Origin: Schizochytrium sp. TIO01 | Lineage: Eukaryota > Sar > Bigyra > Thraustochytrida > Thraustochytriidae | Length of the DNA: 64,000 nt | Assembly (NCBI GenBank): GCA_004764695.1 | Contig: SMSO01000032.1 | Location: 6,220,668 to 6,284,667, forward strand | Direction of reading: 5' to 3' | In this document: positions 16,151-57,100 of the stretch, one piece after another | How the letters are laid out: each line of letters opens with the position of its first letter | Position numbering within the stretch: the first letter of the stretch is position 1 | Translations under genes and position numbers: made by a program | Notes under the pieces: model-generated | The model's database searches: none | Seen by the model: only the letters and a program-made list of their open reading frames with translations | What the model was told of the DNA's origin: nothing

Positions 16151-19100
16151 TTACGATGAAGGTGACACTTGGCGGAGTTTGATCTTAGGATGCTTGCTCA
16201 GCTTCGGTAAATCTTCAATCAAAAACCGCTGAACATGCGGAAGGTCTGGAATAACATCCTCTGGCACGAACAATATAAGTTGCCGTGCCCGTGACATTTC
16301 AATTTTTAGAGCTCTAATAGAAGGGCCTACTACGAAGAGATAGCTCAACAAATCGAACACGAAAAACACCAAGCAAAGGATAAGTACAATTCTTTTGTAC
16401 CAGGCAATTTTAGCGATTTGTGCTGCGAACTGAACATCCGTTGCCACTTGCAACAAAACTTGTAGGTAGTCGTCTTCAAATTCGAAGGTTTCTTTGATGT
16501 TTGACTGTTCTAACAATGCCACAATCCGAGTAGGATCTTCCCATACAGATTCGTCATAAAGGGATTCATCGCTCTCAAGATCCAAGCACATATCCAAGTA
16601 GCTTTCGATAGCACTATGAAATCCCGTTGTTATGACGCCATTACGAAAGGTTTCACACTCCTCTTTTGTGCGTTCTGCATCAGATGGCCATGATGTGCAG
16701 CCGTTTGTTGTGTAAAAACTTAAAAGTTCGTTTGTTGTACTTGTATCTCCAATAATGCCCTTTAAACCGTACGCTGAGTTACCGTATATCATGTCCTCGT
16801 GCGCAGTTTGAAGTTCCTCAGTTGTTTTGATAATTTCCTCAAGGTTCATTACAAAATCCACCTCCTCTCCTGTGCTAGGAAGAAGCCGAGAGTTTCGAGG
16901 CATATCTGAAAATGCGCCAGTAAGACGTAATCGAAGTTCATAATGCAATTTCCTTGACTTTACCTGACGGTACGTCCCAAAAAAGGCATCGTAAGGATAC
17001 GAGTTAAATTGCGTTTTCATGTGGGATACTAGCTGAATCATACCCAAAGAAAAGGACGAAGTGAAAACAAGTAACACACACATTCGCATAATACGTAGCA
17101 GTCGCTTGGGGTTCCTCCGACGCTTTATTTCTAGCTCCCCTCGAAGGCGCTCAATATGAGTTGTCATTGCACGTTTAATTACCGGAGTGTCTGCTGGAAG
17201 ACGTGTTATACGAGATGACTCCCCCATTCCAGCAATCCCACCAATCCCGACGCTTTTCTGGCGTCCGCTTGATTCAAAAAGTGACCTTTTCCGGAATGAT
17301 ATTGCATCGCCTTTGTTTTCTTCTGACTCATCAATACCCGCAAGGGAGGGAGACCCTCCGTCATCAGAACCCACTCCATCGTCGCTTCTACCATCTCCAA
17401 CACCGTCGTTTGAGTGAATTGGCTGAATACCACCATGAATCTCAGTCATTCGTGACGAATACCGCTCTGTAAGCTCTCGAGCGGAGTTACGAGGCATTTG
17501 CAAGAACACTTTGAGAACTCCAAGCTTTGTACGCTCTACTCTCTCATCGTTGCCGAGAAGAGGGTAAAGGCTTACAACGAGCAGAAGAAAACCAAGCGCA
17601 CCGAGAACGATAGCCTCAATTGTAAGTTGATGCTCGACCTTTCCCATGCTTATTCTCGCGTATTCTGTGTATTCCTCACTGGTCGTAGCAAGTCCCCATA
17701 ATGGTGAGTTGGAAACATAGTTTAAGTTTGCAACTAGTGGGAAAACTGTGCTCTCAGATACACTGAAGTCTGATAGAGGATACTCCACCGCTTTGATTGC
17801 CAAGCTAGACAACTTGAGAATAGCATCAAACAGTGTATAGTTGGTCTCTTGCAATTCATCGTTCTGTAATTCCAAATAACGAATTGAATTCTCGTCCTCG
17901 TATAACGTTTGAAGAGTCCCACCAACGTCTCCGCGTAACGCGAACATTTGAGCATCAAGATCCTTGAGCTCTGTTGCAGCTTCCGAGAGCATATCACGAT
18001 AATTCTGCTCATATGTACTGTTTGTAATATTCATACGGATCAAATCAAGACTTCGAGTGCAAAAGGCAATCGTAACGAGATAGAACTTTCGAAACCCGAG
18101 TTCATGTATAAAATCTAGGTCTGTTTGAAAGTCGTCCAAAACATTTGTAGTGTGGAAGTATTGGTACAATGCCACTGCAGCGACAAAAAGTGATGTCGCG
18201 ATGTAAAACTTTCTTACACGCTCTATCGAGGGGTCATCATCAACTTTAGATTCCTTTATTAGCTCCCGACGAACCTTATGGGCCTTTGCGCGAACCGAGT
18301 CGGAGCGGTTTGAGTAAACACTACTTGCACCATCTCCCTTCCCACCTCCCGTTGGTACAGCGCTAGCGGCTAATGATCGACTCTGTAAGTCCATAGCTCG
18401 ACGAAGCAATGCCTCAAGATTTGAATCTGTATCATTAGATTGGTAGTTGAGAGCTTGATCGGCCATGCCAGCATGAAGCTTTTCATCGTAACCATAATCA
18501 CTTGACTCCTGGCGCTGAATTTCTATTAAGCGCTGGGAGTTAGAAACACAAACTTTTACAAAGTCCCTACCTAAACAGTGAACTCGCTCAACCACGACTT
18601 TCACCTGTGAATTAAGTATACGTTCAATGTCCTCGTCTTCAAGATCATTTTGGGCAATCAAGTCATCCGAGACCATGACCAAGCAACCAACCGATCCATC
18701 AGATGTCTCATCAAGAATTGCGTCTAGTTTAATCTTGACAGCATCAGCATGGAGTCTATGATCATTCCTATTTTGGAATTTTCGCTTTAGTCGTTTTTTC
18801 TTCCCGATCATACTGGGCTGAGAAGACAGGTCGTCGAGAGTTGGTACGCGATTCTCTTCAATAGACTTTACTGAAGCTCGACACTCAATAATAGCTTCCT
18901 CAAGAATGCTACTGTTCAAAACCAACTCCTTTAGATTACAACCTCGGTCGCCAGAAACTCCGACTGGAGAGCGCCAATATAGCAAAGAGCTTGCTGGATG
19001 TCCGCTTAACCACGAGTGCACCTGTCCTGCAAGACCAAGTACTATCATGGTTTTGGGATCTACCAAAATAAATGATGAAGCTATATTTTCGTGCAAGGTG

Positions 19101-21280
19101 TGAATTTCGTCACCAGTTGATCCTATGTCAGATTTGGGACGACGTACGGGAGTAAAAAGAGCATAAATTTCAAAGTGAAGCCCATCTGAAGCAAAAGGCT
19201 TTAGTTTCATGTTCACTTCTAATACTTCCCCTGTTGGCGTTCGTAAAAAAGTGTGAATTTTTCTATCAAACCAGGAATCATCACCAAATTCAATAAATCT
19301 CTGGACAATGCCATCCAATCCATTTTTCACAGGATTAAAGCAAAACTCCTGGAAGTGACTCCCAAGCATTGTTTGCGAGGGAGTGTTTAAAAGTTGGCAC
19401 GCCATCGGGTTTGTTGATATAATAGCCCCAGTGCCATCTTGGCCATGACGATCAACTGCGCTCATGACAATAATGCCGATCGAGTCTGAGTTAATGTCGT
19501 CAAGATTTTCCTCTGCGTCTTTGGCAGCTTTTCCACGTGTCAAGCGAGCTGCACGGTTCAGAACGGCTAAGCCATTTTGATAGTCGCTACAAACCTCGAT
19601 CAAAAAGCTCCCAAACTTCTCAAGAAATTCTGGGTTTTTTGGAGATAGATGAAGCAGCTTTAAATAAGATTCTCGAGCTCCTGATGAAAGCCGTGCAACA
19701 TTGAGCGCGAGATTTCGTACTTTGTAGACATCAGGATTAGCCTGGTGAAGTTCATCCCAAAATTTGACTAGCTCAGCTGTGCATTGTTCATCTAATGCCA
19801 CGGCCTCCTTCATGTACATAGCGCTTTTAACATAGCCTAAGAGGTCCGACGAAGCAGTGAGATTTTCTTCTAGCAACCGTTTAGTTTTATAGATTGCAAA
19901 GTGAAGATCGATGTCTAGACCACGTCTTTCAGCAATGAGAATTGCTCGTCGTACAAGAGGCGTACGATCACAAAGAAAGTCGAGAAGCACGTGTGCATGA
20001 AAAACACACAAGGCACTCGATGAAGGAAACACCGAAGCTGCATCAATATACCACTTATGAACCCGCATAGCACGGTCGTGTAGTTCATTCGGATCAGCCT
20101 TAGAGAGAACCTTAAAATGTCTATTTTTCCCTACCCCCTGAATCTCTAGCCTACATTTCAACTCGAGTTCAAAGACATTAACGCATTCTTTTGGCCCTTT
20201 GTTTACAAGGGATTGCCTGCGGTATTGTACAATCGCGTGCATCAAAGGAACAACAAGAATGAGCCCTCCATAAAGCGTTGTGGCAGATGTAAGCTCGAAT
20301 CGTGTATCGTGCTCGGCACATTCACTTGTGCCGAGGTCTGCCGCATTATCCCCGTAAAACAATCGAACGTGGAGAAATGTGCACGATGCTGTCCATGCAA
20401 GAATTCCTGAGAGCACAGCACGAACAACTCCTACATCCTGATCAAAGTAAGGCTGGTACCAACAGAATAGGTATGCCAAGACTCCTGAAAATGACATCAC
20501 GAGGAAAGCCCAGCCAGTTTTTAGACCCACACTAGGGGATGGCGTTTGCACAATGGAAAAGACCAATGTGAACACAGTTTTAGCCATCAAATGTAACGTT
20601 GTGATTCGAGCATGTGGTCTTGCTGAAGGGGCTAAAGACATTGGTCTTGGATCAAACAAGGTGACTGAAACTAAAAGGGAGATAGAAATGAACACTACCA
20701 GAGCAAGCAGCGTGATTGGTTGTAATGCTGTGCAAGTCTCTTCACTGTCGATACCTCGGCAAGTGAGAACATTTGCCATCACACCAACAAAGGGGATGAA
20801 CAAAATGCCCACACAACTTGACATCGTATGCCGAAGGACTTGAATTGTCCACAAATATTTGAAGTTTTTACTGGTCCACATGTAACCAACATAAAACAAG
20901 TTGAGAAGCTCTAGCACCACAACAATAAGGCAAACGAACAGAACTGGAACGACAGTAAATAGTTTGGTTGCTTGGTAGCCAATTTGCATGTGAACGATTG
21001 CACGAGCTAGAGCTCGTACGGAAGAAGGATATGAGAAATCCATAATTTCTGGAGGAGGAAGTACAAATGAAAGCATTTGAAGAAAGTCAACAAACATGAA
21101 GAATAAAAAAGAAACTCTTGAACGCGATCCTTTTTTGGACATGGCAAAAAGTACACCATTTAGACCTTCTTGCGCTTGTTTGATACCTCGATTGATGACT
21201 TCAAGAAGGTTTTCATCTTTCAATTGGCGGCCGTCAATGTTTTCAAGCTCGTCAAAGTCTTGGCGCTTTGATTTTTTCAT
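16151..21280 (-). CDS. TmcB-like multi-pass membrane protein with PAS domain (paralogue A)
   Basis: One uninterrupted 1,709-residue ORF from an ATG at 21280. Residues of about 55-355 hold roughly eight membrane segments. Residues 370-600 are helical and TPR-like (the region annotated as TmcB/TmcC TPR repeats in relatives). Residues of about 605-712 form a PAS domain (GAIISTNPMACQLLN, then the TFLRTPTGEVLEVNMKL strands). A long polar Ser/Asp/Gly-rich cytoplasmic stretch follows. The C-terminal third has about four more membrane segments flanking two large, Asn-x-Ser/Thr-containing, probably non-cytoplasmic domains. It ends with the family-conserved VPEDVIPDLPHVQRFL. Dictyostelium TmcB (tiny macrocysts) is the namesake; such proteins are thought to be membrane sensors, but no ligand is known. 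It is paralogous along its whole length to the gene at 24263-29470, which is divergent to it. Codons are AT-rich, unlike the metabolic genes. Confidence 0.88.
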   Translation of the reverse strand: MKKSKRQDFDELENIDGRQLKDENLLEVINRGIKQAQEGLNGVLFAMSKKGSRSRVSFLFFMFVDFLQMLSFVLPPPEIMDFSYPSSVRALARAIVHMQIGYQATKLFTVVPVLFVCLIVVVLELLNLFYVGYMWTSKNFKYLWTIQVLRHTMSSCVGILFIPFVGVMANVLTCRGIDSEETCTALQPITLLALVVFISISLLVSVTLFDPRPMSLAPSARPHARITTLHLMAKTVFTLVFSIVQTPSPSVGLKTGWAFLVMSFSGVLAYLFCWYQPYFDQDVGVVRAVLSGILAWTASCTFLHVRLFYGDNAADLGTSECAEHDTRFELTSATTLYGGLILVVPLMHAIVQYRRQSLVNKGPKECVNVFELELKCRLEIQGVGKNRHFKVLSKADPNELHDRAMRVHKWYIDAASVFPSSSALCVFHAHVLLDFLCDRTPLVRRAILIAERRGLDIDLHFAIYKTKRLLEENLTASSDLLGYVKSAMYMKEAVALDEQCTAELVKFWDELHQANPDVYKVRNLALNVARLSSGARESYLKLLHLSPKNPEFLEKFGSFLIEVCSDYQNGLAVLNRAARLTRGKAAKDAEENLDDINSDSIGIIVMSAVDRHGQDGTGAIISTNPMACQLLNTPSQTMLGSHFQEFCFNPVKNGLDGIVQRFIEFGDDSWFDRKIHTFLRTPTGEVLEVNMKLKPFASDGLHFEIYALFTPVRRPKSDIGSTGDEIHTLHENIASSFILVDPKTMIVLGLAGQVHSWLSGHPASSLLYWRSPVGVSGDRGCNLKELVLNSSILEEAIIECRASVKSIEENRVPTLDDLSSQPSMIGKKKRLKRKFQNRNDHRLHADAVKIKLDAILDETSDGSVGCLVMVSDDLIAQNDLEDEDIERILNSQVKVVVERVHCLGRDFVKVCVSNSQRLIEIQRQESSDYGYDEKLHAGMADQALNYQSNDTDSNLEALLRRAMDLQSRSLAASAVPTGGGKGDGASSVYSNRSDSVRAKAHKVRRELIKESKVDDDPSIERVRKFYIATSLFVAAVALYQYFHTTNVLDDFQTDLDFIHELGFRKFYLVTIAFCTRSLDLIRMNITNSTYEQNYRDMLSEAATELKDLDAQMFALRGDVGGTLQTLYEDENSIRYLELQNDELQETNYTLFDAILKLSSLAIKAVEYPLSDFSVSESTVFPLVANLNYVSNSPLWGLATTSEEYTEYARISMGKVEHQLTIEAIVLGALGFLLLVVSLYPLLGNDERVERTKLGVLKVFLQMPRNSARELTERYSSRMTEIHGGIQPIHSNDGVGDGRSDDGVGSDDGGSPSLAGIDESEENKGDAISFRKRSLFESSGRQKSVGIGGIAGMGESSRITRLPADTPVIKRAMTTHIERLRGELEIKRRRNPKRLLRIMRMCVLLVFTSSFSLGMIQLVSHMKTQFNSYPYDAFFGTYRQVKSRKLHYELRLRLTGAFSDMPRNSRLLPSTGEEVDFVMNLEEIIKTTEELQTAHEDMIYGNSAYGLKGIIGDTSTTNELLSFYTTNGCTSWPSDAERTKEECETFRNGVITTGFHSAIESYLDMCLDLESDESLYDESVWEDPTRIVALLEQSNIKETFEFEDDYLQVLLQVATDVQFAAQIAKIAWYKRIVLILCLVFFVFDLLSYLFVVGPSIRALKIEMSRARQLILFVPEDVIPDLPHVQRFLIEDLPKLSKHPKIKLRQVSPSS

Positions 21281-21347
21281 GTTGATCTCTCTAATAGTAT
21301 GTTATGACGAACCGTGATGGTGCTATGCGATTTACAGTTCTAAAATC

Positions 21348-22505: not shown

Positions 22506-24262
22506 AAGCTTGTTAGTAATAGTTCTCTTTTATAATGTTATGTTTTATTAGTATTATTTAATTTTTAAAAATTAAAGTACTTTTATGGAGATATAATGTA
22601 TTTCAAGTTATTTTGTACGAATTAATGAAAATTAAAATTTAAAACAAAAAAGAAAAAACAGGGGGCTAGTTTTAAAGCAAGAAAATAGAAATGTGCCGAT
22701 AAGCTTTAAGCATTCATGTGGAGCCGTTTAGTTAATTCGACATCGTAACCGTAACTAGTCTACGAAATAGTATCAAATCACTATACCTTACCTTGCATGT
22801 AAGTCGCTATGTATATACACTATGAGTGAAAATTTCCTAACATGTATGCAGAGGAACTATGATAAATTACCTGGACAGAATTATTTTTTATTTTTTTAAA
22901 AATTAAAAATGCCTCATAGCCGTTGGAACGCCATGTCACAGGAAAAACTTAAAATCGTGACTTCGGATTTAAAGAACAGATCTAAACCCTTCATCTCTAC
23001 TTACCACCTTAGACATGTGGGGAGATGTATTCACCCTCCTCAGATCATATTATGAAAGAAACCATGCCTCAGGCGACTTCGATCAAATAATATAGATTCA
23101 TTACAACTTTGCAAAAGCTATTTTATACTCAAAACCTTTGATTCAAAGAGCTCAAGTTATCGAGCGAAGAAATTATCTATTCTGCCTGGAGCCTTCATGT
23201 AGTAACCGTGTTGAGGCTTGAGAAATTTATAGTGGTGTAGGTTTGTCTTGTAGTAGAGTAAGAAGCAGGAAACGAAGAAACCGTTTGGTTGCTATTAAAA
23301 TGTAGAATGTATCCGTGGATCCTCTGCAGGTATGCTCGAAGAGTGCAGAGGCAATTGGGTTTTATGTAGGCTATTAATAAGAAATAATACTTGTTGGCTT
23401 TTAAAAATTATCTCTGTTAGGATTTTTAGTCTATTGAATAATTTGGAAGAAAAAAAGAACTTCCACTTTTCCTCTTATAATGGGTATCGTGATAGTATTT
23501 ATGTTACCAAACATCTTGTTTTAATCTGGCATGATTGCATCTCAAATAGCTTCTATGATGTTCATACATTTAATTCTGATAACATTCGATTAGGGTTAAT
23601 TTGAAACCTTTCTCTCAATGCTGGTGAGGGGGGTTGCGATGCAATTATAAGAAGAAAAAGAGTTTTTATAAAAGGGCATGCAACCATTTTTTCTTTCTGT
23701 CAAAGTTACCGTTGCAATATAGTTTTATTTTTTAAAAATATTTTTAATGCATTTATTTATATTGACAAAGTGTGCCACTAGATAACGTACACGACTCCAG
23801 ACTGGACAGCATGTGAAAGGCACATAGCTTCGAACAACGGTCTTTTGTTTAGCATTAAAGGTAATGGTCAATTCACCTTCCTCGATTTGATTCCTAAAAT
23901 GCGATGAGGGTGTTAATATTGAACTCTTAAATTGCAGTATAAAACATTTGGCCAACTCAAGACGAGTTCAGGTCATCAAAGTACAAACAGGGCGAGTCTT
24001 TGCACTGCCCCTGTGGAGAGGTGCCCCCTTGTGGAGAGGTGGCTCCATTGGCGTGCTGTCAGACGTCACGCCTGGTTGCTCAGGCGCCTCTTTAACACGC
24101 AGCCCAGCCTGTGGTACTGCAACAGGTCTTTGAAATTCACCTTCGCTGCATTTTCCATCTTGAAGCCCTTCGCTCGCTAGTGAGTGCCCTGTTTACCTTT
24201 GATCTATCAATTGAACAACAAGACGAACTAGGTTGCTGAGACGGGTTGAGACTTTCTTCAAA

Positions 24263-27200
24263 ATGGCGGCGACGGTAATTTCTCGAGCACAGAGTCACAT
24301 GAGTGGTGCTACTGGCGTAAGCGGTGGTGTTGATGCAGATATGGACCGGGCTTTTCGGCAGCTTCGGTCACAATCTGGAAGCGCTTCGAGCATTTTCATG
24401 GACCTTGAAGCTTTCATCGAGAAAACAAAGATAGGCATGAACAATCTCCTGCACAGCATGACAAGAAACTCCAAAGAGACTTACACGGTCTTCGTAATAG
24501 GAGCAATTATTGAAGCAGGGCAACTTGCAGCACTTGCTTTACCTGACGAAAACACTTTAGATATGGGATACCCTACCCCAGTGGCAAAGTTTGCGGAGAT
24601 ACTTTCTTATACTCGATTTGGGGAGCTTCTCTGGGAACATTTCAACCACTTCACTGTCGCAATTGTCATTCTATGCATTCTTTTGATTGAACTTTTAGCA
24701 CTTCCTTACGTAGCGTATACATGGTCAGCAAAGGAGACGAAATCACTTCAAACCAAAGTTGTTCAGTCTCAGATGTCTATTTTTGGTGGAATCTTCTTCA
24801 TCCCTGTTATTTCATGTCTCGCTGAGGGTGCATTTTGCTCAAAATTTAGTACAGCCGAGTGTTCCTTTTTCATGCCAATCGCAATTGTTGAACTTGTCAT
24901 ATTCGTAGTCCTCGTTCTTCTAGTATCTGTCATGTATTTCGATTCACGTCCAAAGTCAAAGTCAATGACAGCACGCCCGCATGCGAGAATTCACGTGCTT
25001 AGCGTTTTCACCCGTGGCCTGCTTGCGCTTGTATTTACTAGCATTCAAAATGTTGGCTCATCGAATACATCTGTTCTAAAGTTCTGGTCATGTCTGTGTG
25101 CAATTATGTTAACTCTACTTTGCGCATCTTACACGTGGTATCAACCATATTTTCACCAACGAGCAAACTTCATTCGAGCCTTGAGTACTGCTGTTGCAGC
25201 ATGGCTGGCAATTTGCAGCGCTGTCCATGTGCTTAAAACAGGTGGAGTAAGTGCTACTACGACTGAGGAATGCGTTTACAGTACTGATAGTACAATTACG
25301 GTTACTATCTTTGGTGGCCTGTCATTAGTTCTTCCTTTGATTTGGGTAGGGATCCATTACCGTCGTTACTCTCTACAAATGAAACCGGCCAATCAATGTT
25401 CAAATGTGTATGAGTTGGAGTTAAAAGGCCGTCTTGAAATTCAAGGTCTTGGAATTCATCATATCAGCGATTTAAATAAGGCCGATAAAGAAGAGATTCA
25501 AAATCGAGCTAGTCGGGTAAATCAATGGTATATGGATGCTGCAACCCTGTTTCCTCTTTCTGGTGCTTTGTGTATGTTTCATGCAATCTACCTTCTCTCG
25601 TTTCTACCTAATAAGACTCCAATGGTGCGTCGCGCTATCGTGATTGGTATTAAGCGAGGCTTGAGCCCTGATTTTCACGTCATCGCATACAAGGTTAGGC
25701 GAACGCTTGAAGAGACAATTCAAGGATCATCAGACGTACTCAGTATTGTTCGCTCAGAGGAGTTCACTGCTGAAGCTTTGAAGTACGACAAGCGGTGCTC
25801 ATCTCAGCTTGTGGAGTTTTGGAGTGAACTATCAGAAAAACGTCCAGATATCAACAAGGTGCGTCGTCTGGCCTTAAAAATCGCAGTTTCCTCGTCCAGC
25901 GCGCACAAAGCATATCTAAAACTCTTGAAGAACTCTCCAAAATCTGCACTCGTGTATGATATGATATCTTCTTTCCTCTTGGAAATCATGCATGATACTC
26001 GTCTTGCCGCCATGATGCGCCTTAAAGGAGCTCGGATTGCTCGGGAGGTAGGTGCACGAAATAGCACAAATCTGAATGACGTCGAGTCAGATGCTCTCGG
26101 AGTAATTGTTGCTCGTGCATCAACTGAAAATCGCCACGAACTTGGGGACGTGATATTTGCCAACATTAATGCAAGCCAGATCTTGAACCAAGTGAATCAA
26201 ATGATTGTTGGCCAGAAAATTGATAGTATTCTCACCACTCCCTTAGCAGAAACATTCGAGGACATTGTTGATGGGTTCTTTGAAGAAGGAAAAGACGCAC
26301 CATTTGAAGACACCATTCAAACTTTTTTGAGAACCCCAAATGGTAATGTAGTTGCTGTGAATCTCAAATTACAGCCTTACTCTCCAGATGATGTTACTTT
26401 TAACATGTATCTCATCTTCCAGGCTGACACCTCTCACAGCGGAGAGAACTACCTTGTGGTTGACGAAACTAGTGGTATTATTCACGGAATGGGTAGTTCC
26501 TGCCATGCTGCATTTCATGGCCACCTTCTTGCAGCAAACCAACGTCAGTACAGTGGAATGAACATCCCAACTGGAAATCAACAAAGTATTGGTGAAGGTG
26601 ATGAGTTACGTTTGCACATCTCAACGATTATTCCTAACTTTGCTGCAATTGATATTAAGAGGTTTCCAGAAGGTCAACCTATCCCTGTATCGCTCGAGGA
26701 AGAAGATACTGGAGCTCACATTCTGAAGCGTTTCAGAGTATCGTTCCACCCCCCTGCGCATGCTGAGACTAGCGTTGATCAGATAACTTCCTCTGCTCAT
26801 TTGTCTAAACAGTCGCGTCGACCAAGCATAGCTTCGTTAATTATCAACGACGAGGCTGAGCAGGCGGCTCGTGCTTCTATGACATCCTCAAGTCTTGATG
26901 ACAGTGGCGGTGCCCATGGCTCTGCGTCTCCTAATGGTGGTGATACCGGCTATGTTATGCGGCGCGCGGATACAGTCACTGGAACGATTCGAAGAGTGTC
27001 TTCTATGGCACAGCAAGCTACTCATGTGAAGGGCAGAGTGTGGTTCAAGCGCAAGCGTGTGCTAGGCAAAGATTTGCTTCAAGTTTTCCTGCACGACCCT
27101 GATGTTCCAGAGTTCAACACAATGGACGATCGATTGGAAGAACGCATGAGAGCCACCATTGATGGAGACGCCGGTAGCGACCTGGATTCGATGGGCAATG

Positions 27201-29470
27201 ATAATGACTCCACTGCAGGAGAAAGTATCGAGCCAAAAGCTCGCACTGGCCTTGTGCGACGTACATTCACAGACAAATCAGAGCATATGCGTCGATTCAT
27301 CGACGAGATGGGCTCCGAAGCTAAAATCACTGTCACCCCAAAGAGGGCAGGGTCTCGAGCAGGATCTAAGGCTGGTTCAAAGGCAGGTTCCCTAGCTTCT
27401 GGTGAGGTTCTTCGTTTGAAAGCGCAAGCTGTTCGAAAAATGCTTCAAGATAGCCAAAACGCAGCAATGGATGCTACGCTTGCAAAACTTCGCCGGATGT
27501 ATCTCCGTGCTTCCGTTTTGGTATGTATTTGTGCGATCATTCAATACGTAACTAGTACTGACACTTTGCAACAGTACAAAAGTGACGTTCAATTCGTTGG
27601 CAGCATGGGCTTCCGACGCTACTGTCTCTTACTTATCGCGTATTCAGCACATGGGCTTTCACTTATTCGACGCGGTATTCTTGACTCAAGCCTAGAAGAT
27701 ACGCTCCGAGGAAGTCTGAACACGGCTGCTACAAATCTGAAAACCATCGACTTCACTGTTTTCCAACGCCGAGGCAGCATTGGAGGAGATCTACAAGCAA
27801 TATATGAAGACCGAGATCTGCAGTACTATTTTATGAGAAATGGTTTTGTTTCCTATGAAAATATGAGTCTCTTCGACACAACCATGAAAATCTCAAGCCT
27901 GGCATTGCAAGCTGAGCAAGCAAACCTAACGGATTTCTATCCAGGTTCGCCACTGACCTTGCCTCTAATGGAAAATTTGGATTTCTACAACAGAAGTGCT
28001 CTATATGGTCTTGAGGCAACAACTGAGGACTTTCAAGAATATTGTCTAGAACATGCCGCAGAAGTACTGCACCAACTTTACATTGTTGCATGCGTGATGG
28101 GTGTCTTTACACTTGGGCTCGTCCTTCTAACAATTTATCCTTTAGTCGGAAATGGAGGAAAGATTGAAAAGGTCAAAGGAGAGATTCTCCAAGTTTTTTC
28201 TGATATTCCCAAAAAGACTACTCAAGATGTAGGACTTAGGTTCGTCGAGCGTCTCCGGTGCGTCCATGAAGAGGATGTCGATGCGTCCAGACTTAATGGA
28301 GAGCACCCTGCGACGCGCAGCGTTGCCTTAGATGGGGATCATGACACGCACAAGCCGCTACCAGGAGTAAGTGCCGGTGGTGGCGGAGGCGGAGGCATGT
28401 TAGGCCATCTTACAGATGCCGCAGACAATTCAACAGGGCAAACCAGGGAGCCAAGGAAGGTTGCCAAGGTAGCTCCTGATGTTCCAGCCGACAGAAAGAG
28501 TGCACCTAAACCCAAAAAGAGTTCCGACAAAGTTGACAAGAAACCCTCTCCATGGTGCACAGTACGGAAGGTCGTCATCACCGCAAAAATGAGTACATTA
28601 CTGTTTCTCTCTATCATATACTTCTCGTCGACTGTCCTGTTGTCTGCTAAATTAGAATGGGACACGCACAGTGCTCCAGTTACAACAAACCTGGCTGGGT
28701 ATCGGCGAATGAAAATTTTGTATACCATGCATGAATTTCGGCTCTGGCTCACTGGCGCCTATGAAGGCATCGAGATTGAGACCGAGGAAAATCTTGACAC
28801 AGATTACATCAGTAGTGCAGAACGAGTTCGCGAGCGCCTTTCTGACTTCAAGGAGCTCCATGACATTCTGTTGTATGGATCTACAGAGTATGGCGTGACA
28901 GGAAGTTTCCGAGATTCAGATACTCCAGAAACACTTATGACTTTGTACACCACCAATGGATGTCTTAACTTCGTTGAGAGCGGTAATGTGACGCAAGAGG
29001 TCTGCGAGGAGTTCGACAATGGCCTTATGATGACCGGATTGCAAAGCGCCATCACAAACTACCTTGACGCCGTTGACGAGTTGACCTTTGACACCGATAT
29101 TGAGGATGCTGTATTGTCCCAAGACGACGCTACTATTCGTGATGTTTTTCTGCGGGATGATGTTCAGCGAGTAATATACCTCGAGGAGAAACTCTTGCAA
29201 CCGCAGCTCAACTATGTCGTTCAAATCAATAATGCAGCACTCGTAGCACGTGTGAAGAACGTCGAGGTGTCTATGCTGATTCTCCTTGTTGGCCTCATTG
29301 TTTTAGCTCTCTTCGCCTATGCATTCATTGTGCGGGCTATGCTTTCACGGCTTGATACAGAGGTCAAGCGTACACGTAGTCTCTTGTTGGTTATTCCAGA
29401 GGACGTCTTGGATTCCTTACGGCATATCCAGGTCTTCCTTGTAGACTCCTTCTCAAATCAAAACAAGTAA
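24263..29470 (+). CDS. TmcB-like multi-pass membrane protein with PAS domain (paralogue B)
   Basis: One 1,735-residue ORF. I start it at the ATG at 24263 (CTTCAAAATGGCG, good eukaryotic context); upstream in-frame codons are not ATG. The order matches paralogue A: about eight N-terminal membrane segments (residues of about 70-370), a TPR-like helical region, a PAS domain near residues 610-715 (VIFANINASQILNQVNQMIVG), a disordered linker with an AGSRAGSKAGSKAGS run near 27344-27392, then about four more membrane segments around two extracytoplasmic domains, a Gly/Lys-rich linker, and the conserved end VIPEDVLDSLRHIQVFL. Shared signatures with A include SARPHARI versus TARPHARI, CSNVYELELKGRLEIQG versus CVNVFELELKCRLEIQG, and FYTTNGC versus LYTTNGC. 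Likely a plasma-membrane or endomembrane sensor, with unknown ligand and output. Confidence 0.88.
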   Translation: MAATVISRAQSHMSGATGVSGGVDADMDRAFRQLRSQSGSASSIFMDLEAFIEKTKIGMNNLLHSMTRNSKETYTVFVIGAIIEAGQLAALALPDENTLDMGYPTPVAKFAEILSYTRFGELLWEHFNHFTVAIVILCILLIELLALPYVAYTWSAKETKSLQTKVVQSQMSIFGGIFFIPVISCLAEGAFCSKFSTAECSFFMPIAIVELVIFVVLVLLVSVMYFDSRPKSKSMTARPHARIHVLSVFTRGLLALVFTSIQNVGSSNTSVLKFWSCLCAIMLTLLCASYTWYQPYFHQRANFIRALSTAVAAWLAICSAVHVLKTGGVSATTTEECVYSTDSTITVTIFGGLSLVLPLIWVGIHYRRYSLQMKPANQCSNVYELELKGRLEIQGLGIHHISDLNKADKEEIQNRASRVNQWYMDAATLFPLSGALCMFHAIYLLSFLPNKTPMVRRAIVIGIKRGLSPDFHVIAYKVRRTLEETIQGSSDVLSIVRSEEFTAEALKYDKRCSSQLVEFWSELSEKRPDINKVRRLALKIAVSSSSAHKAYLKLLKNSPKSALVYDMISSFLLEIMHDTRLAAMMRLKGARIAREVGARNSTNLNDVESDALGVIVARASTENRHELGDVIFANINASQILNQVNQMIVGQKIDSILTTPLAETFEDIVDGFFEEGKDAPFEDTIQTFLRTPNGNVVAVNLKLQPYSPDDVTFNMYLIFQADTSHSGENYLVVDETSGIIHGMGSSCHAAFHGHLLAANQRQYSGMNIPTGNQQSIGEGDELRLHISTIIPNFAAIDIKRFPEGQPIPVSLEEEDTGAHILKRFRVSFHPPAHAETSVDQITSSAHLSKQSRRPSIASLIINDEAEQAARASMTSSSLDDSGGAHGSASPNGGDTGYVMRRADTVTGTIRRVSSMAQQATHVKGRVWFKRKRVLGKDLLQVFLHDPDVPEFNTMDDRLEERMRATIDGDAGSDLDSMGNDNDSTAGESIEPKARTGLVRRTFTDKSEHMRRFIDEMGSEAKITVTPKRAGSRAGSKAGSKAGSLASGEVLRLKAQAVRKMLQDSQNAAMDATLAKLRRMYLRASVLVCICAIIQYVTSTDTLQQYKSDVQFVGSMGFRRYCLLLIAYSAHGLSLIRRGILDSSLEDTLRGSLNTAATNLKTIDFTVFQRRGSIGGDLQAIYEDRDLQYYFMRNGFVSYENMSLFDTTMKISSLALQAEQANLTDFYPGSPLTLPLMENLDFYNRSALYGLEATTEDFQEYCLEHAAEVLHQLYIVACVMGVFTLGLVLLTIYPLVGNGGKIEKVKGEILQVFSDIPKKTTQDVGLRFVERLRCVHEEDVDASRLNGEHPATRSVALDGDHDTHKPLPGVSAGGGGGGGMLGHLTDAADNSTGQTREPRKVAKVAPDVPADRKSAPKPKKSSDKVDKKPSPWCTVRKVVITAKMSTLLFLSIIYFSSTVLLSAKLEWDTHSAPVTTNLAGYRRMKILYTMHEFRLWLTGAYEGIEIETEENLDTDYISSAERVRERLSDFKELHDILLYGSTEYGVTGSFRDSDTPETLMTLYTTNGCLNFVESGNVTQEVCEEFDNGLMMTGLQSAITNYLDAVDELTFDTDIEDAVLSQDDATIRDVFLRDDVQRVIYLEEKLLQPQLNYVVQINNAALVARVKNVEVSMLILLVGLIVLALFAYAFIVRAMLSRLDTEVKRTRSLLLVIPEDVLDSLRHIQVFLVDSFSNQNK

Positions 29471-48811: not shown

Positions 48812-49240
48812 ATCTTTTATAATTTGATAATTTAAAATTTTAAAGTAGACACATGTTTTTTGTTTCAAATAATACTAACAGGTCCCTAACAAGAGTAAGT
48901 AAAAGGCACATTCAAAAGAAAGGGACTCGATAGCACTGAGCGCAAAGAGGGGTATGATGGAAAGATGAGTTTGATTGAGGGTCAGTCCTCCTCAGAGAAA
49001 GTCGAAAGCTAAAAACGTTTTTAAAAGAAGGGCACAAGAGAGAGAGAGAGAGAGAGAAAGCGAAGAAGCATGAGAGAAAGCGAAGAGACAGAGAGAGAAG
49101 AAAGGCAGAACCCCAACTGGGCGCGAGCAAACCCCTAACTGAGCAAACAGGTCGCTGAGTGAGAGAGCGATTGACCAGGTCCGCAGCAGGATCTTGCGAA
49201 GGAGCAGGAGCAGTAGGGGAAAGGATTGCAAAGCAAGAGG

Positions 49241-50833
49241 ATGTTTGCGGTGCGTGGAACGAAGGCAGCAGCGACCCTCGGCAAGGCGAGGCAGCCTGCG
49301 GGCGGCCTGCGCGGCGTGGTCGCGTTTGCCGATCGCTGGAATGACATCAAGGCCAAGGCACTCTTGGGCGGCGGCGAGGAGCGTATCAAGAAGCAGCACG
49401 CCAAGGGAAAGCTCACTGCTCGCGAGCGCATTGCGCTCCTTGTTGATGCAGGATCCTTCTCCGAATACGACGCACTCAAGCTCCACCGATGCACGGACTT
49501 TGGCATGGAGAAGGAGCAGTACTACGGCGACGGTGTTGTCACCGGCCACGGCTACATCAACGGCCGCCCTGTCTTCGTCTTCTCCCAGGACTTTACCGTC
49601 TTTGGTGGATCCCTTTCTGAGACCCATGCCGAGAAGATCTGCAAGATCATGGACAAGGCCCTCAAAGTCGGCGCACCCGTCATCGGCATCAACGACTCCG
49701 GTGGTGCCCGTATCCAGGAGGGTGTTGCCTCCCTCGGTGGCTACGCTGAAGTCTTTCAGCGCAACGTTGAAGCCTCTGGTGTCATCCCGCAGATCAGTCT
49801 TATCTGCGGACCTTGCGCTGGTGGCGCCGTCTACAGTCCCGCCATCACTGACTTCACCATGATGGTACGCGACACGTCTTACTGCTTTATTACCGGCCCG
49901 GAGGTCGTCAAGACCGTCCTCAACGAGACCGTCACCCAGGAGGACCTCGGTGGCGCCAAGGCCCACATGACCAAGTCCGGTGTTGCTCACCTTGCCTACG
50001 ACAACGACGTTGAGGCCATCCGCATGGCCCGCGAGCTCTTTGACTACCTTCCCTCAAGCTTCGATGCCAAGGCCCCGCGCCGCACCACTCTTGACTCACG
50101 CACTCGCGCTGACCCTACCCTCGACATGATCATTCCTGAGGACCCCAACATGCCCTACGACATGAAGATCATCATCAAGAAGATAGTTGACGAGGGCGAG
50201 TTTCTGGAGATCCAGCCCGAGTTCGCCAAAAACATCATTGTCGGTTTCGGTCGCCTTGACGGACGCACCGTCGGTGTCGTTGGTAACCAGCCTCTCGAGC
50301 TTGCCGGCTGCCTTGACATTAACTCCTCTGTCAAGGCTGCCCGCTTCGTGCGCTTCTGTGATGCCTTCAACATCCCCCTCGTCACCTTTGTCGATGTACC
50401 CGGATTCCTTCCCGGAACCACCCAGGAGCACAACGGTATCATTCGCCACGGTGCCAAGCTTCTCTACGCCTATGCTGAGGCCACTGTGCCCAAGCTCACT
50501 GTCATCACCCGAAAGGCATATGGTGGTGCTTACGATGTGATGGCCTCCAAGCACCTCAAGTCTGACTGCAACGTCGCCTGGCCTACCGCCGAGATTGCCG
50601 TCATGGGTGCCAAGGGTGCCGTCGAGATTATCTTCCGTGGCAAGAACGTTGAGCAGGAGACTGAGAACTACAAGGAGCGCTTTGCCAACCCGCTTATCGC
50701 CGCTGCCCGTGGTTTCGTCGATGAAATTATCGTCCCCTCTACCACCCGCCAGCACCTCTGTGAAGAGCTCGAGCTCCTCGCTGACAAGAAGGAGGTCCGC
50801 CCCAAGCGTAAGCACGGCAACATCCCTCTCTAA
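49241..50833 (+). CDS. PCCB: Propionyl-CoA carboxylase beta chain, mitochondrial
   Basis: Single exon; I start at the ATG at 49241, giving 530 residues (the usual PCCB length is about 510-540). The first 25-30 residues ([20 protein letters not shown]) are basic and free of acidic residues, as in mitochondrial presequences. The rest is the two-lobed carboxyltransferase fold: N-lobe signatures [20 protein letters not shown] and [18 protein letters not shown]-lobe signatures [19 protein letters not shown] and [13 protein letters not shown]. The enzyme transfers carboxyl from biotin (on the alpha chain) to propionyl-CoA, giving methylmalonyl-CoA, in breakdown of odd-chain fatty acids and of Val, Ile, Met and Thr. 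The family also includes methylcrotonyl-CoA carboxylase beta, but the motifs fit PCCB. The alpha chain is not in this window. Codons are strongly C/G-ending. Confidence 0.95.
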
Positions 50834-52707
50834 GCAGCATTTTGTTGTCTACGCCCCGTTTTTTTAAAATTATACTCCCCCATCCTTCTATATACCCACA
50901 CAATACCATATGTCAAGACAAAAGGATTGTAAACTTCCTTGCGGCTTGGATTTCGTGCGCGTTCCTACTGCTCCTAGAAACGGTAGTTCGACACGCCCCG
51001 TTATTGTACTGCTGCTAGCTCCTCGGATGAGCGTGCTGCTGGTCACTCGGTCGTGAAACTTCTCTTTCTTTTTTCTCTTTTTTTTTTTTTTTTTTTAAAC
51101 CATCCTCACACCTTAGACACCATCTATTGCCCCTTCCCTACCATTCACCAACCCGCTTGACATTGTCATGAACACTGTGCAGTCAAGTTAAGCCTCTGCT
51201 TTGGCTTGGATATTCAACATAATTTACACAATGCCTCTGTCGTCAACCATAATATTGCGTTTTGCATTTCTTTTCATTTTACCTCTATCTACTATTACTT
51301 TTACATTTTTTCGTGGTATTCATTTCTTCTGTAATTACCTTTTCTGATCTTTACACACCTACTTGCCCTTCACACAAGTGCATCGTTGCAAGTCTAATTC
51401 TTGTGTTGCGTGTTGATCACACATCTGAAACACTGCATGTTAGCATTTGCCCCTACTTCTCGTTATCCATTTTCTTATTCAGGAGCAAGAGCAAGACAAG
51501 AGACACTGTTTTCCTTGTCCTCGAATCATTAATTCTCGTATTCACATTCGAACCAGCCGGTATGGAAACAGCCTACGCTTCCGTGTAAGCCCACCCACCT
51601 CTGGCAATCATCAACCATAGGCTCCCTCACAGCTGGATCGAACAACACGCTCCTCATGCTTACAATCCACGACCAACCAACAACTGCACTAACCAAGCAG
51701 AGGCCGCCGACGTTCTTTCGTCTTGATCCACGGCCCTCGCGCATGAGCCGTCCACCATCGTAAACAAAACCTACATTTACTCCGCGCTCCTCCTTATAGG
51801 TACCTAATGATGACGCAAAACAATAACAACAACGTAGTCACTTAATTGATCCATATATCTATCTTTCTTTAGCTAATGCAATAGATACTAAGAAAAGATA
51901 CAAGCAAGCGTCCCACAGGATCTACCCAACTTCCGTGGTGCCCCCCTCTGCATCCAAAGAGCCTCTCTCTTCCCCGGCCTTTCTGCCCATAGGGGGGTCT
52001 TCCTACGAGTGTGGATGTCCCTGCTTCCCGCCCTAATGAGGCCCAGGATCTTTCTCAATATTTCAAAGACGGCGCGAAGCACTACACATCCACGAGACAT
52101 AGATCACTCCTGCTCTTCTTCTGCCTTCGGGCCTCGCTCTCGCAGCCGCGGCCGCCGACCCGCGAGCTGGCGGGCCTCGAGGGGGGCGGCGGCCAGGCCC
52201 GGAGCCTCAGAGCGCGGGGCGGCGGCCGCGGAGCTGAAGAATCGACGATGGTTTGTTTCAAAGCTCAAGTTCAACTTCGAGATGGTCGATGTTCTTTTCC
52301 TCTGTTCTTGTTGGTCAGATTAGGAGAACACCCTATTACTACAATCACGCACTTTCACTAGCATCACCCTGGCGTTGATATCGTGGAGGTGGCAGGGTGA
52401 AAGAATGTGCTACGTTCTTCAGTAATGGCGATTATGGGACATGAAAATGATAATTTGAAATCGCTCATTACACTACATTAGAGTAGCAGGTAGTAGGTAG
52501 TAGGTAGAAAGATAGAACAGAGTTTGGAACAGAGAATTGGCGTAGGCCACGCTTAGAGTAAACGGTAGGGGTCGCGAAGGAAGGATACGACGGAAGGGAT
52601 TTGAAAGTGATTTGAATCAGAGCCTCGAGTGAAGAAAAGCTTCGGCAAACACGAAACTATATCTATCGCGAAGGGATTCGTTCGAGTGGACCTGCAAGCC
52701 TGGCAAG
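50834..52707. other. 3' region of PCCB and 5' region of PGK
   Basis: CT-rich 3' UTR-like DNA with a long T-run (about 51069-51097), then AT-rich DNA and a GC-rich patch at 52110-52240 with purely compositional ORFs. TAGTAGG-type motifs repeat at 52488-52510. The PGK leader is GA-rich. No further gene is supported. Confidence 0.5.
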
Positions 52708-54198
52708 ATGAGCCTTCTCTCCAAAGCGAGCCTCGAGGATGTCGAGCTTGAGGGCAAGCGCGTGCTCATGCGCGTGGACTTCAACGTCCCGTTTGACAAG
52801 GCGACTGGCGAGATTAGCAACGACCAGCGCATCGTCGCCGCCCTGCCGAGCATCAAGTACGCTCTGGACAAGGGTGCCAAGTCCGTCGTGCTCATGTCTC
52901 ACCTCGGACGCCCTGACGGAAGCCCCAACCCGAAGTACTCCCTCAAGCCTGTCGCATCTCGTCTCGAGAAGCTTCTCGAGCGCCCCGTGAAATTCCTTGA
53001 GGACTGCGTGGGACCCGAGGTCGAGCAGGCCTGTGCCGACCCTGAAGCTGGCTCCGTGATCCTTCTTGAGAACTTGAGATTCCACATCGAGGAGGAGGGC
53101 AAGGGCAAGGATGCCGAGGGCAACAAGGTGAAAGCCGATGCCGCCAAGGTCGAGGAGTTCCGCAGCTCACTCACCAAGCTTGGAGACATCTACGTCAACG
53201 ACGCCTTTGGAACTGCTCACAGAGCTCACTCATCCATGGTTGGCGTTCAGTTGGAGCCGCGTGTCGGAGGATTCCTTGTCAAGAAGGAACTCGACTACTT
53301 TGGAGCTGCTCTTCAGAACCCGGCACGCCCGTTTGTGAGCATTCTTGGTGGCGCCAAGGTTGAGGATAAGCTTCAGCTCATCATGAACATGCTCGATATT
53401 GTCAATGTCATGGTCATTGGAGGAGGCATGGCCTTCACCTTCAAGAAGGTCGCCGGTATGGAGATTGGAAGCAGTCTCTTTGACGAGCCTGGATCACAGC
53501 TTGTGCCCAAGATCCTTGAGAAGGCTAAGGAAAAGGGCGTCGAAATCTATCTCCCCAACGACTTCATTGCTGCTTCCAAGTTTGACAAGGATGCCGAGTT
53601 CAAGGTCGTCACTGAAGAGGAGGGCGTCCCTGAGGGATGGCTGGGCCTCGACATTGGCCCTGATTCATCCAAGCGCTTCGCCGAGGTCATCGCCAAGGCC
53701 AAGCTCATCGTCTGGAACGGACCCATGGGTGTCTTTGAGTTCCCCAACTTTGCCAAGGGAACCAAGGCCGTCATGGATGCCGTTGTTGACGTCACCAAGG
53801 CTGGCGCTACCACCATCATTGGTGGTGGCGACACCGCCACCTGCTGCACCAAGGAGTACTTTGATACTGAGGACAAGGTCTCCCACGTCTCTACTGGTGG
53901 TGGCGCCTCTCTTGCTCTCCTCGAGGGCCAGGAGCTCCCGGGTGTCGCTGCTCTCAGCGAGAAAAAGGTACGAAACAACAACTCTGCAACCCCATCTTCG
54001 AAAAGCACCAAGGCTACTGCCTCTGCTACTGCTGAAAAGTCTCCCACCAGCAGCGGCAGTGGCAGCAGCAGCAGCAACACCAATGATAAAAAGCAGTCTG
54101 GCATTATGCGTCACCTTGAGGAATACCCCTTGGCTGTCGCTGGAGCTGTTGCTTTGGGTCTTTTGCTTGTAACTACCGCTCTCAAGCGCAAAAACTGA
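52708..54198 (+). CDS. PGK: Phosphoglycerate kinase with C-terminal membrane anchor
   Basis: Single exon, 496 residues, ATG at 52708. Residues 1-420 are a complete PGK: the signature [67 protein letters not shown], the nucleotide loop IIGGGDTA, and the closing [20 protein letters not shown]. It makes ATP and 3-phosphoglycerate from 1,3-bisphosphoglycerate in glycolysis, reversibly. Ordinary PGKs end at about residue 415-420. This one continues in frame for 76 residues: a Ser/Thr/Asn-rich linker (421-464) and then one hydrophobic segment of about 20 residues (473-492, [19 protein letters not shown]) followed by KRKN. This is the layout of a tail-anchored protein, with the enzyme facing the cytosol. 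No N-terminal presequence is seen. A GTACGA at the exact junction (53968) could be a splice donor, so an untailed isoform is conceivable. Confidence 0.95.
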
Positions 54199-57100
54199 CG
54201 ACTTTTTTTCTTCATTTCTTTTCCCTAAAAACCTGGGGTGTACCTATACTCTCTTACTACGCTTTTTTCTCTTTTTTCCTTTGTACGCTTCTTCATCAAC
54301 AAACACAAATTCACTACATTCATTCACACAGGCTGAGTAAATTGACAACGCAATCACATCATAACACATCATCTCGCTCTGGCCCATGCTAGTATTGCCT
54401 GAAATTCGGTCTTCTAGTTCACTGGGTCGCCACTATTCCTTTAAAAGACAGCAATGGGTGCGAAAGGGCTCTAGTCACATGGCGATGATAAAGTGACAAC
54501 AACTTACGCCCCAATTGCAATTGTTTATCAGACGACCTTTTGGCATAATCTTGAGGGTTTCTTTTCTTAGGGATGCGTAGAGGTAACGATTTATTTGGTA
54601 TTTTTCATTTGTGAATTTGGACTTGTAGCTTTTTTTTCTTCTTTTTTCTTAACTCCTTTCCTGATAATAAAAATTATCAAGTTAGAACTAAGTTAGACCG
54701 CTTGAGGCTTGCAACTATCAACTTGTCTGCTCACTTCTATATCATCTAATTTCCTTACCCAACGGAAGTCGTCATGCTAACTCTGCTTTTCAATTGTATC
54801 ATAACCTAATTTTATGGACGTGACCAAAAGTTCACAACAGCTTGCACCGTGGTGAAATCTATTCGCAATTTGTTTCATCAATGACGGCCAAATTTATTCT
54901 TTACCACTTGTCGCACGAATGCATTTGCATGATTTATGGCTCTTTCTGCTATTTTCTTTCAGATTATATTAAATTTTCAATAGCGACACGAAATCAGCTT
55001 GATCTTGACACTAAACTTTATGTGTTGCTTATCGATGAAGGTAGAAGTCTAGAATTATTGCATGACGCTACCATTTAGAGTTTTATATCATAAATTTATT
55101 GTTCTCATAAGTACAGTAGTTTCATTATCTTCCAAAAGCATATAATGCTATTATAAACTCTCTTCAAAAGTAGAGTACCTATGAGTTATACTTTTGTCAT
55201 ATCTATCATGACTAGGATTATTTAGAAGTAGTGAACACAGGAACTTATGATAGTAAACCATATAAGTCAATTGAAAAAAAAAAAATGAAAAAAAAAAAGC
55301 ATTGAAGATTATAAATGCTTTCAAGGAATCTGCATTCTAAAGCCTCGTGTTGGATTTCGTCTTATATTTGCTTTCACTGCTTTCACTTTTGCTTAAGCTT
55401 GCCTTTTTTTATATGCCAGAGCTAGGCCACCCTGTGTTACCATTACGTGTTCTTTGCCACAGCTGAACGCTGGCATCATGGGGTCGGAGTCCGTATGAGT
55501 AAGGTAAGCAAGGTTGCCAAGAACCCAGATCCCACCTGGTCTGGGTTCAAAAGTTGCTTAACTTCATCATTAAGATGGTTCTGGTCATTCCAAACACTCT
55601 GAAATACTTGATTCAAAGGGCATATACACTGTTCAAACCAGGTATATGTACAGTGAGCGAGGAGAAGAATGTTTGGAGTATTGGTGATGTTGATGGTGGT
55701 ATCGGTGGTGATATTGGTTCGACGCTTCAGAGTTGACTTATTCTTCCTCTTATTCCTCCTTGCAATCTCACTTGAATCGGGGAGGCATTGAGGCAAAGAG
55801 AATGATGTTTCCAGCTCCCGAGAAATCTTGGTCAGTGCCTAAAGGCAAACCCTGAGGCTACTATTGTTTTTCTTTGCCGAAATTAAGGATCACTGAGAAT
55901 CTTTCCAGCACTGTAAAGAGACACGATGGGGTTGCTTTCATTATCAAAGAGATCCACAACAGCCGGGGCTTTACAGTGGTTGATTTCATTTACAGCTCTT
56001 GGGTCAACTCATACCGGTGCCCTGCCATCTTGTGCTTGACAATACTCGCCTTATGCCTGATACCGACTATCACGAGTGTCATCAGAGCAAACTTAAGGCT
56101 AAAACTATCCGAAAACTTATTGGCAAGGCTCCTTGAGCTCAACATAGCAGTGGACAGTGTTTCTCTCCATAACTGCTGCAAGTTAAATGCTTGTATCTAA
56201 TGTTTTCTTCTTTAGTTTTCTTCCTTTTTGATTGAATTAAATATACTTGCTTCTCCTACACACTCGCACATCAGAAAAGGGATCCAGAGCCGTGAGGAAA
56301 TAGTAAAATTATAAATTCTATCCATCTCCAATATCTTGATCCTTGTTTCTCTTGTAAGAGTCACCATTGTAGCGGTCGGCAGAACTTTGACGATTCTCTC
56401 GTTTTCATTCGTTAGAATTTCCAGTCTTCAACAAGCTCTTTTGCATGAAGACCTTCCGAGTGTGTGGGGCAAAAAGCTAGAGCCGATCCAGACTACCTTT
56501 CTGCTTCGCCGTAGTCATTATAATGAATGTTGCTACCCTCAGAATCACCCTAGCCGGCTTTCACGTTTCATGACTACCGGACGCATCTGCAAATGTAAGT
56601 GAACTCTTACGATCGTGCACAGCCGTTGCTGAAAGAAGCCATATAGAAAATGTTGACCTTGTTCCCCCCTCAGAGCTACATGTCCCTTTTTCTCCTCATC
56701 TTTGGAACTTGCATGTGATCCTCCTCTATGTTTGTCTGCTAATGATAGTGAAGCATGAGCCGAGTCTAAGTCGAGGTTCTTTGCATGGCAGCATGGCAAA
56801 TTCGAGCACTGCGTCAAGTTGATATCCAGCAACCTCTGGAAAAAGAGGCCCTTTGTGGAGCAGATCGCCTGACTACCGGCAAACTTGCTCTTTTTCGTCA
56901 CTTTCACATGGCAGTTGTGGCCCTTTCCAGTCGTAGGAGCTTCCGCTACTCGCTGATAGCAACTGCAGCTCCTCGCGACATTCTTGGATTCTACTCTTTA
57001 GTTCAACCGCATTTGCCAACGCCTTCTGCATTGCTTCTATCAAAACTCTCTATTCAGAATTATCCTTCTGCATTCTACTTGTATACTTCTTATGCTCTTA

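Follow-up and report, generated by a model that had tools for sequence, protein, structure and literature searches.

We identified a phosphoglycerate kinase (PGK) with a C-terminal tail in a 64-kb stretch of contig C31 of Schizochytrium sp. TIO01 (hereafter, the window); the assembly examined comprised 64.06 Mb in 37 contigs. The gene was located in an uninterrupted stop-to-stop frame of 521 codons (52633-54198, + strand) and, from the first ATG at 52708 to the TGA at 54196-54198, encoded a protein of 496 residues. Its catalytic domain (residues 1-420, 52708..53967, +) matched the full length of Pfam model PF00162 (residues 9-408 of 496, model positions 1-379 of 379, 502.6 bits), and phmmer searches against PDB gave up to 608.8 bits with PGK1-type chains. 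At an E cut-off of 1e-50, the PDB search listed 46 sequences, whose alignments with the tailed PGK ended at residue 416-422; those of the yeast enzymes 1qpg and 3pgk extended to residue 420. Multiple alignment of 17 sequences showed that D24, N26, R41, H65, R68, R124, R172, K217, K221, E344 and G373-D375 are invariant, and these positions presumably correspond to the substrate, nucleotide and hinge residues of PGK. Because these core residues are conserved, the tailed PGK should be an active enzyme. Its N-terminus aligned with the canonical PGK start in the PDB searches and contained 5 acidic residues among the first 25. The mitochondrial presequence expected of a matrix PGK was absent from the frame, although an upstream exon may provide one.

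Additional genes were observed in the window. A carboxyl transferase domain protein, presumably of the propionyl- or methylcrotonyl-CoA carboxylase beta type, was encoded upstream of the PGK gene (49217-50833, +). Two very long, oppositely oriented ORFs (16151-21301, -, 1716 codons; 24215-29470, +, 1751 codons) each had a TmcB-type TPR match and are possibly a diverged inverted pair.

The PGK domain was followed by 76 in-frame codons (53968-54195, +) that encode a Ser/Thr/Asn linker, a hydrophobic segment of 19-20 residues and a terminal KRKN. The linker (residues 421-460, 53968..54087, +) was rich in Ser, Thr, Asn and Gly, had an in-frame codon signal and was predicted to be disordered (pLDDT < 50). 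A juxtamembrane stretch of 13 residues (461-473, 54088..54126, +) included three residues (468-470) that were helical, with low confidence, in the structural model. The predicted transmembrane segment (residues 474-492, 54127..54183, +) corresponded to the best 19-mer of the tail, P474-L492, which had a Kyte-Doolittle mean of 2.14, contained no charged residues and was bounded by EEY and KRKN. The basic KRKN, with a net charge of +3, and the TGA stop occupied 54184..54198 (+). Within residues 1-420, the most hydrophobic segment (224-242, mean 1.65) was inside the PGK fold of the model. AlphaFold2, run with a 17-row alignment, gave a confident PGK up to approximately residue 421, pLDDT below 50 for residues 422-496 and a low-confidence helix at 477-494; because this alignment contained no tailed relative, the low pLDDT of the tail is expected and the helix lends weak support to the anchor. 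As judged by simple hydropathy and not by a tail-anchor predictor, the protein had a single hydrophobic segment near the C-terminus, none elsewhere and no N-terminal signal, which are sequence features of tail-anchored proteins.

These observations agree with most of the initial annotation of this locus. It had described a complete PGK to residue 420 with 76 additional in-frame codons, which is borne out by the open frame, Pfam and PDB alignments, and had correctly placed the extension at 53968..54198, from the first extra codon to the end of the TGA. The proposed Ser/Thr/Asn linker and single 20-residue hydrophobic segment ending in KRKN were also confirmed (19-20 residues), and the suggested tail-anchor architecture is supported by the lack of an in-frame presequence, one hydrophobic segment 4 residues from the end, the basic tail and an in-frame coding signal. 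On these sequence features, the PGK is probably anchored in a membrane by its tail.

The coding character of the tail was examined in three ways, by codon usage, by simulation and by comparison with relatives (below). Its synonymous-codon score in frame was 0.17 log2 per codon over 76 codons (0.19 for residues 421-466, 53968-54105; 0.145 for residues 467-496), compared to -0.02 for the 76 triplets after the stop. This score was reached by none of 424 wrong-frame stretches and by 0.28% of 5000 random stretches of the window outside ORFs of at least 220 aa. Among 213 coding stretches of 76 codons, 76% scored at or below the tail; they came from a training set of 40 ORFs, assembled automatically by taking the longest frame at each locus of the genome, and a few wrong frames may be among them, which would probably weaken the codon test. 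In 60,000 Markov sequences with the dinucleotides of the tail, 7.0% were open and one had a tail-anchor-like end; when the dinucleotides were those of the DNA downstream, the same number of sequences gave 1.8% open frames and five such ends. The two properties did not occur together in any of the 120,000 simulated sequences. A shift of frame or an overlooked stop beyond residue 420 was rejected, since the coding signal and the anchor would both have to be due to chance. From codon usage and open frame, the tail is very likely translated. A search of the genome with the tail peptide recovered the tail itself (E 4.9e-47) and no second copy, the one further match being at chance level (E 2.35); this counts against the anchored-PGK model described below.

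Three PF00162 matches were present in the genome: the window gene, a second PGK (L002) and a partial match in L003. The second PGK was 67% identical to the tailed one, ended with ALSDK at the usual place without a tail and had a presequence-like start (MLSSVASRSRASAFGLPMAVSRAFSSSS). L003 (G000:C31:3046787-3050014) was a 1775-codon ORF that contained a MYCBPAP match, a diverged PGK stretch and long acidic repeats; the symbols for protist PGK-related proteins in a table of a PGK review, as far as that source was available, include an MYCBP-associated domain (PMC7729029). In prokaryotic genomes, 462 relatives of the tailed PGK were found, and the best 80, all prokaryotic and 57-65% identical, were kept. 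None of these best 80 of 462 bacterial relatives was tailed, and the stop was seen in all 80. The distance from the STGG[GA][AS] motif to the stop was 18-28 residues in this set versus 96 in the tailed PGK, with lengths of 18 (4 sequences), 19 (67), 20 (3), 23 (1), 26 (1) and 28 (4). In viral contigs, four stretches matched a pattern, none of which encoded a relative.

Other glycolytic enzymes of the genome were analyzed for presequence-like starts, a term that here refers to a reading of the first 25 residues by charge and extra length and not to predictor output. Three Enolase_N and three Enolase_C matches were detected, with only one full-length enolase (L006). Its start (MFAPQVVSRRAMTAAANSARQAST) was presequence-like; a cytosolic form could arise from the second Met. 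Two other loci, L007 (G000:C3:1910862) and L008 (G000:C36:981145), encoded diverged partial enolase-like proteins, the former with long acidic inserts and the latter with a presequence-like N-terminus. The single iPGM_N match (L019) also had a presequence-like start (MLRGFSRKSTFAAAARLSPAQRR). For pyruvate kinase (PK), we detected three full matches and a fourth, fragmentary one that contained a stop; the start of L015 was presequence-like and those of L013 and L014 were not. GAPDH (four Gp_dh_C matches, L009-L012) and TPI (two TIM matches) had no added presequence-like N-terminal stretch, and no TPI-GAPDH fusion was seen among these six matches.

Acidic residues were absent from the first 25 positions of the second PGK, enolase, iPGM and PK L015, and in the first three of these the enzyme match started only after the acidic-free stretch. 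GAPDH L010 was also acidic-free in this region, but these residues were already part of the enzyme. The maximal hydrophobic moment failed to separate the groups (0.26-0.50 for the four presequence-like starts, 0.40 for the tailed PGK and 0.35-0.75 for two GAPDHs and two TPIs). We infer from charge and extra length that the presequence-like starts act as presequences, and upstream exons may add or remove such sequences in these enzymes.

The PF00300 family, which includes cofactor-dependent phosphoglycerate mutase (PGM), had 26 matches, distributed over 23 open frames. When each of these frames was compared with NCBIfam (L108, L104 and L110 in part), only L112 passed the TIGR01258 model for this PGM (121.4 bits versus a cut-off of 81.7), whereas L116 scored 79.5 on a fragment lacking the first exon. 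A mitochondria-only PGM was considered and abandoned, as the start of the PGM-type L112 (MVDGSTHVGNGVQVDADG) had no presequence character. Because of this start, 2-phosphoglycerate could also be a cytosolic product.

Lacking a presequence, the tailed PGK is the predicted cytosolic PGK of this organism. We infer its insertion, topology, target membrane and benefit as follows. The 496-residue, cytosolic-type and catalytically complete enzyme would be inserted post-translationally via its C-terminal hydrophobic segment and would face the cytosol on a flexible linker of approximately 40-50 residues, with KRKN alone on the far side of the membrane. The likeliest membrane would be the mitochondrial outer membrane. 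There, the anchored PGK would convert cytosolic 1,3-bisphosphoglycerate to 3-phosphoglycerate on the outside of the organelle in which the sole full-length enolase detected would reside, and 3-phosphoglycerate (or its product) would be freed beside its import route. If enolase is mitochondrial only, carbon would have to enter mitochondria at or before 2-phosphoglycerate. The initial annotation had linked the tail to the mitochondrial glycolysis of stramenopiles, and the genome sharpened this link, as its one full enolase begins with a presequence-like stretch. In stramenopiles, a carrier that transports 3-phosphoglycerate is known from Blastocystis (GIC-2), according to the available part of its description (PMC11115451). 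If located in mitochondria, the second PGK (L002) would lack a mitochondrial GAPDH, its usual partner, which speaks against this model.

The target membrane was considered from charge and hydropathy. In the available part of a study of tail anchors in mammalian cells, ACBD5 anchors with tail charges of +4.9, +2.9 and +0.9 were directed to peroxisomes, mitochondria and mainly ER, respectively (PMC5450235). The charge of +3 in the tailed PGK is near the mitochondrial value and favors the outer mitochondrial membrane; however, its hydropathy of 2.14 weakens this assignment since it is above 1.75, the mark of ER anchors in yeast (PMC5450235). Thus, the targeting rules given there conflict for this protein. 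Among anchors of the same genome, hydropathy was 2.47 for Sec61-beta, 2.14 for the tailed PGK, 1.88 for a Fis1-like and 1.42 for a Miro-like protein, with one protein each, too few to settle the target, and with identities that each rest on a single Pfam match. If the PGK is anchored, the outer mitochondrial membrane has about an even chance of being its location. We tentatively favor, at somewhat below an even chance for the whole, a PGK that is tail-anchored with its enzyme domain toward the cytosol, most probably in the outer membrane of mitochondria, and that makes 3-phosphoglycerate near its entry point.

It is possible, if rather doubtful, that the PGK is instead tail-anchored on the surface of the ER, a peroxisome, or a lipid droplet or vacuole. 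Besides the hydropathy above the yeast ER mark, a strongly basic tail favors peroxisomes in mammals, but the +3 here falls short of +4.9, the charge of the ACBD5 anchor that went to peroxisomes (PMC5450235). Leishmania PGKC resides in glycosomes, which are of peroxisome type (PMC7729029), and a diatom glucokinase was assigned by its authors to cytosolic membranes such as the vacuole (PMC2173943; both sources as far as available). The lower glycolytic enzymes encoded by this genome, however, point to mitochondria.

Splicing could produce a different outcome. A donor-like site, AAG/GTACGA (53965..53973, +), matched the general consensus MAG/GTRAGT at 7 of 9 positions and coincided exactly with the boundary between PGK domain and tail; it was one of two sites with at least 7/9 in the gene of approximately 1.5 kb. 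Downstream, CACAG/GCTGAGTAA (GCT GAG TAA; AG at 54330-54331, +) is a possible acceptor, and its use with the donor at 53968 would yield ...SEKK-AE-stop. Two further genes of the genome contained introns with GTAAGT donors that were recognizable on visual inspection. Alternative splicing, in which the donor is used in part of the transcripts to give a soluble PGK (SEKK-AE or similar) along with the tailed one, nevertheless appears unlikely: the evidence is agreement with a consensus, from which the donor departs at +4 (no A) and +6 (no T), and with six candidate acceptors in the 710 bases of 53991-54700, one that fits is unsurprising and is weak evidence. A more elaborate version, which we consider very improbable, is that splicing precisely where the catalytic domain ends supplies both a soluble and an outer-mitochondrial-membrane PGK from one gene, the anchored form serving as the hand-over where glycolysis leaves the cytosol, with enolase being mitochondria-only.

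It is quite unlikely that the tail is always spliced out or untranslated, leaving an ordinary soluble PGK. The donor-like site would allow this, and 76 open codons alone occurred by chance in 2-7% of trials, but the codon usage of the tail is coding-like, at a level that wrong-frame stretches did not reach (0/424), and unlike that of the 3' sequence beyond, and in the Markov simulation a tail-anchor-like end was very rare by chance. Finally, a translated tail whose hydrophobic helix binds a protein partner or oligomerises without spanning a membrane is very unlikely, since 19 uncharged residues between EEY and KRKN fit a bilayer span, although protein-protein interaction is one proposal for the Leishmania PGKC extension in the available part of the review (PMC7729029).

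In stramenopiles, glycolysis is divided between the cytosol and the mitochondria, and the passage of intermediates from one to the other is largely open outside Blastocystis. If the model of a mitochondria-anchored PGK is correct, the last cytosolic ATP-making step would be placed at the site of 3-phosphoglycerate import. A soluble glycolytic enzyme would have been turned into a tail-anchored one, possibly fixing a sugar-breakdown step that is usually free in the cytosol to the surface of an organelle. Tails in thraustochytrid or labyrinthulid PGKs were not mentioned in the titles and abstract openings of the papers listed by our literature search, and the terms thraustochytri-, labyrinthul-, Schizochytrium and Aurantiochytrium did not occur in the main text of selected papers on stramenopile glycolysis.

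If Leishmania PGKC has approximately 479 residues, its predicted helix would likewise be near the end. In the available part of the PGK review, this enzyme is extended at the C-terminus by 63 residues, which include a transmembrane helix predicted at 451-472 that ends in Arg-Arg (PMC7729029). The claim of the initial annotation that known PGK extensions are different was wrong as written; its interpretation of tail-anchor architecture is supported, its link to mitochondrial glycolysis is sharpened, and its suggestion of a new way to place this step is conjectural. Compared by published description, PGKC of Leishmania/Leptomonas resembles the tailed PGK in having a C-terminal extension (63 versus 76 residues), one predicted helix and a basic end, and in both systems a tail-less isoenzyme is present, PGKB in Leishmania and L002 here (PMC7729029). 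However, the glycosomal PGKC has a cytosolic tail-less partner that is 99.5% identical (PMC7729029), whereas the partner here shares 67% identity and begins with a presequence-like stretch. A 455-residue PGK, described in the Angomonas/Strigomonas section, also combines a PGK domain with a transmembrane segment and is predicted for membranes, but a glycosomal membrane was hypothesised, unlike our preferred reading; trypanosomatid PGKL (PGK-CNB-HTH-TMD) likewise joins a PGK domain to a transmembrane segment and is predicted for membranes, but is multidomain and mostly predicted to be inactive (PMC7729029). As far as these descriptions were available, a PGK with a C-terminal membrane helix has precedent in PGKC, the 455-residue PGK and PGKL (PMC7729029).

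Among stramenopiles, a transmembrane helix at the C-terminus is also predicted for a glycolytic enzyme of diatoms, glucokinase, but it is a different enzyme at a different step of the pathway, and its authors proposed vacuolar-type membranes (PMC2173943, available part). The mitochondrial payoff-phase enzymes share with the tailed PGK the same half of the pathway and a mitochondrial link; in the available parts of the sources they carry N-terminal presequences (PMC5715807, PMC6198282), whereas the tailed PGK has none in frame, and L002 fits this class. What is new is the setting: a predicted anchor on a cytosolic-type PGK, in a genome where presequence-like starts occur on the tail-less PGK, on the sole full enolase and the sole iPGM detected, and on one PK among the three full ones.
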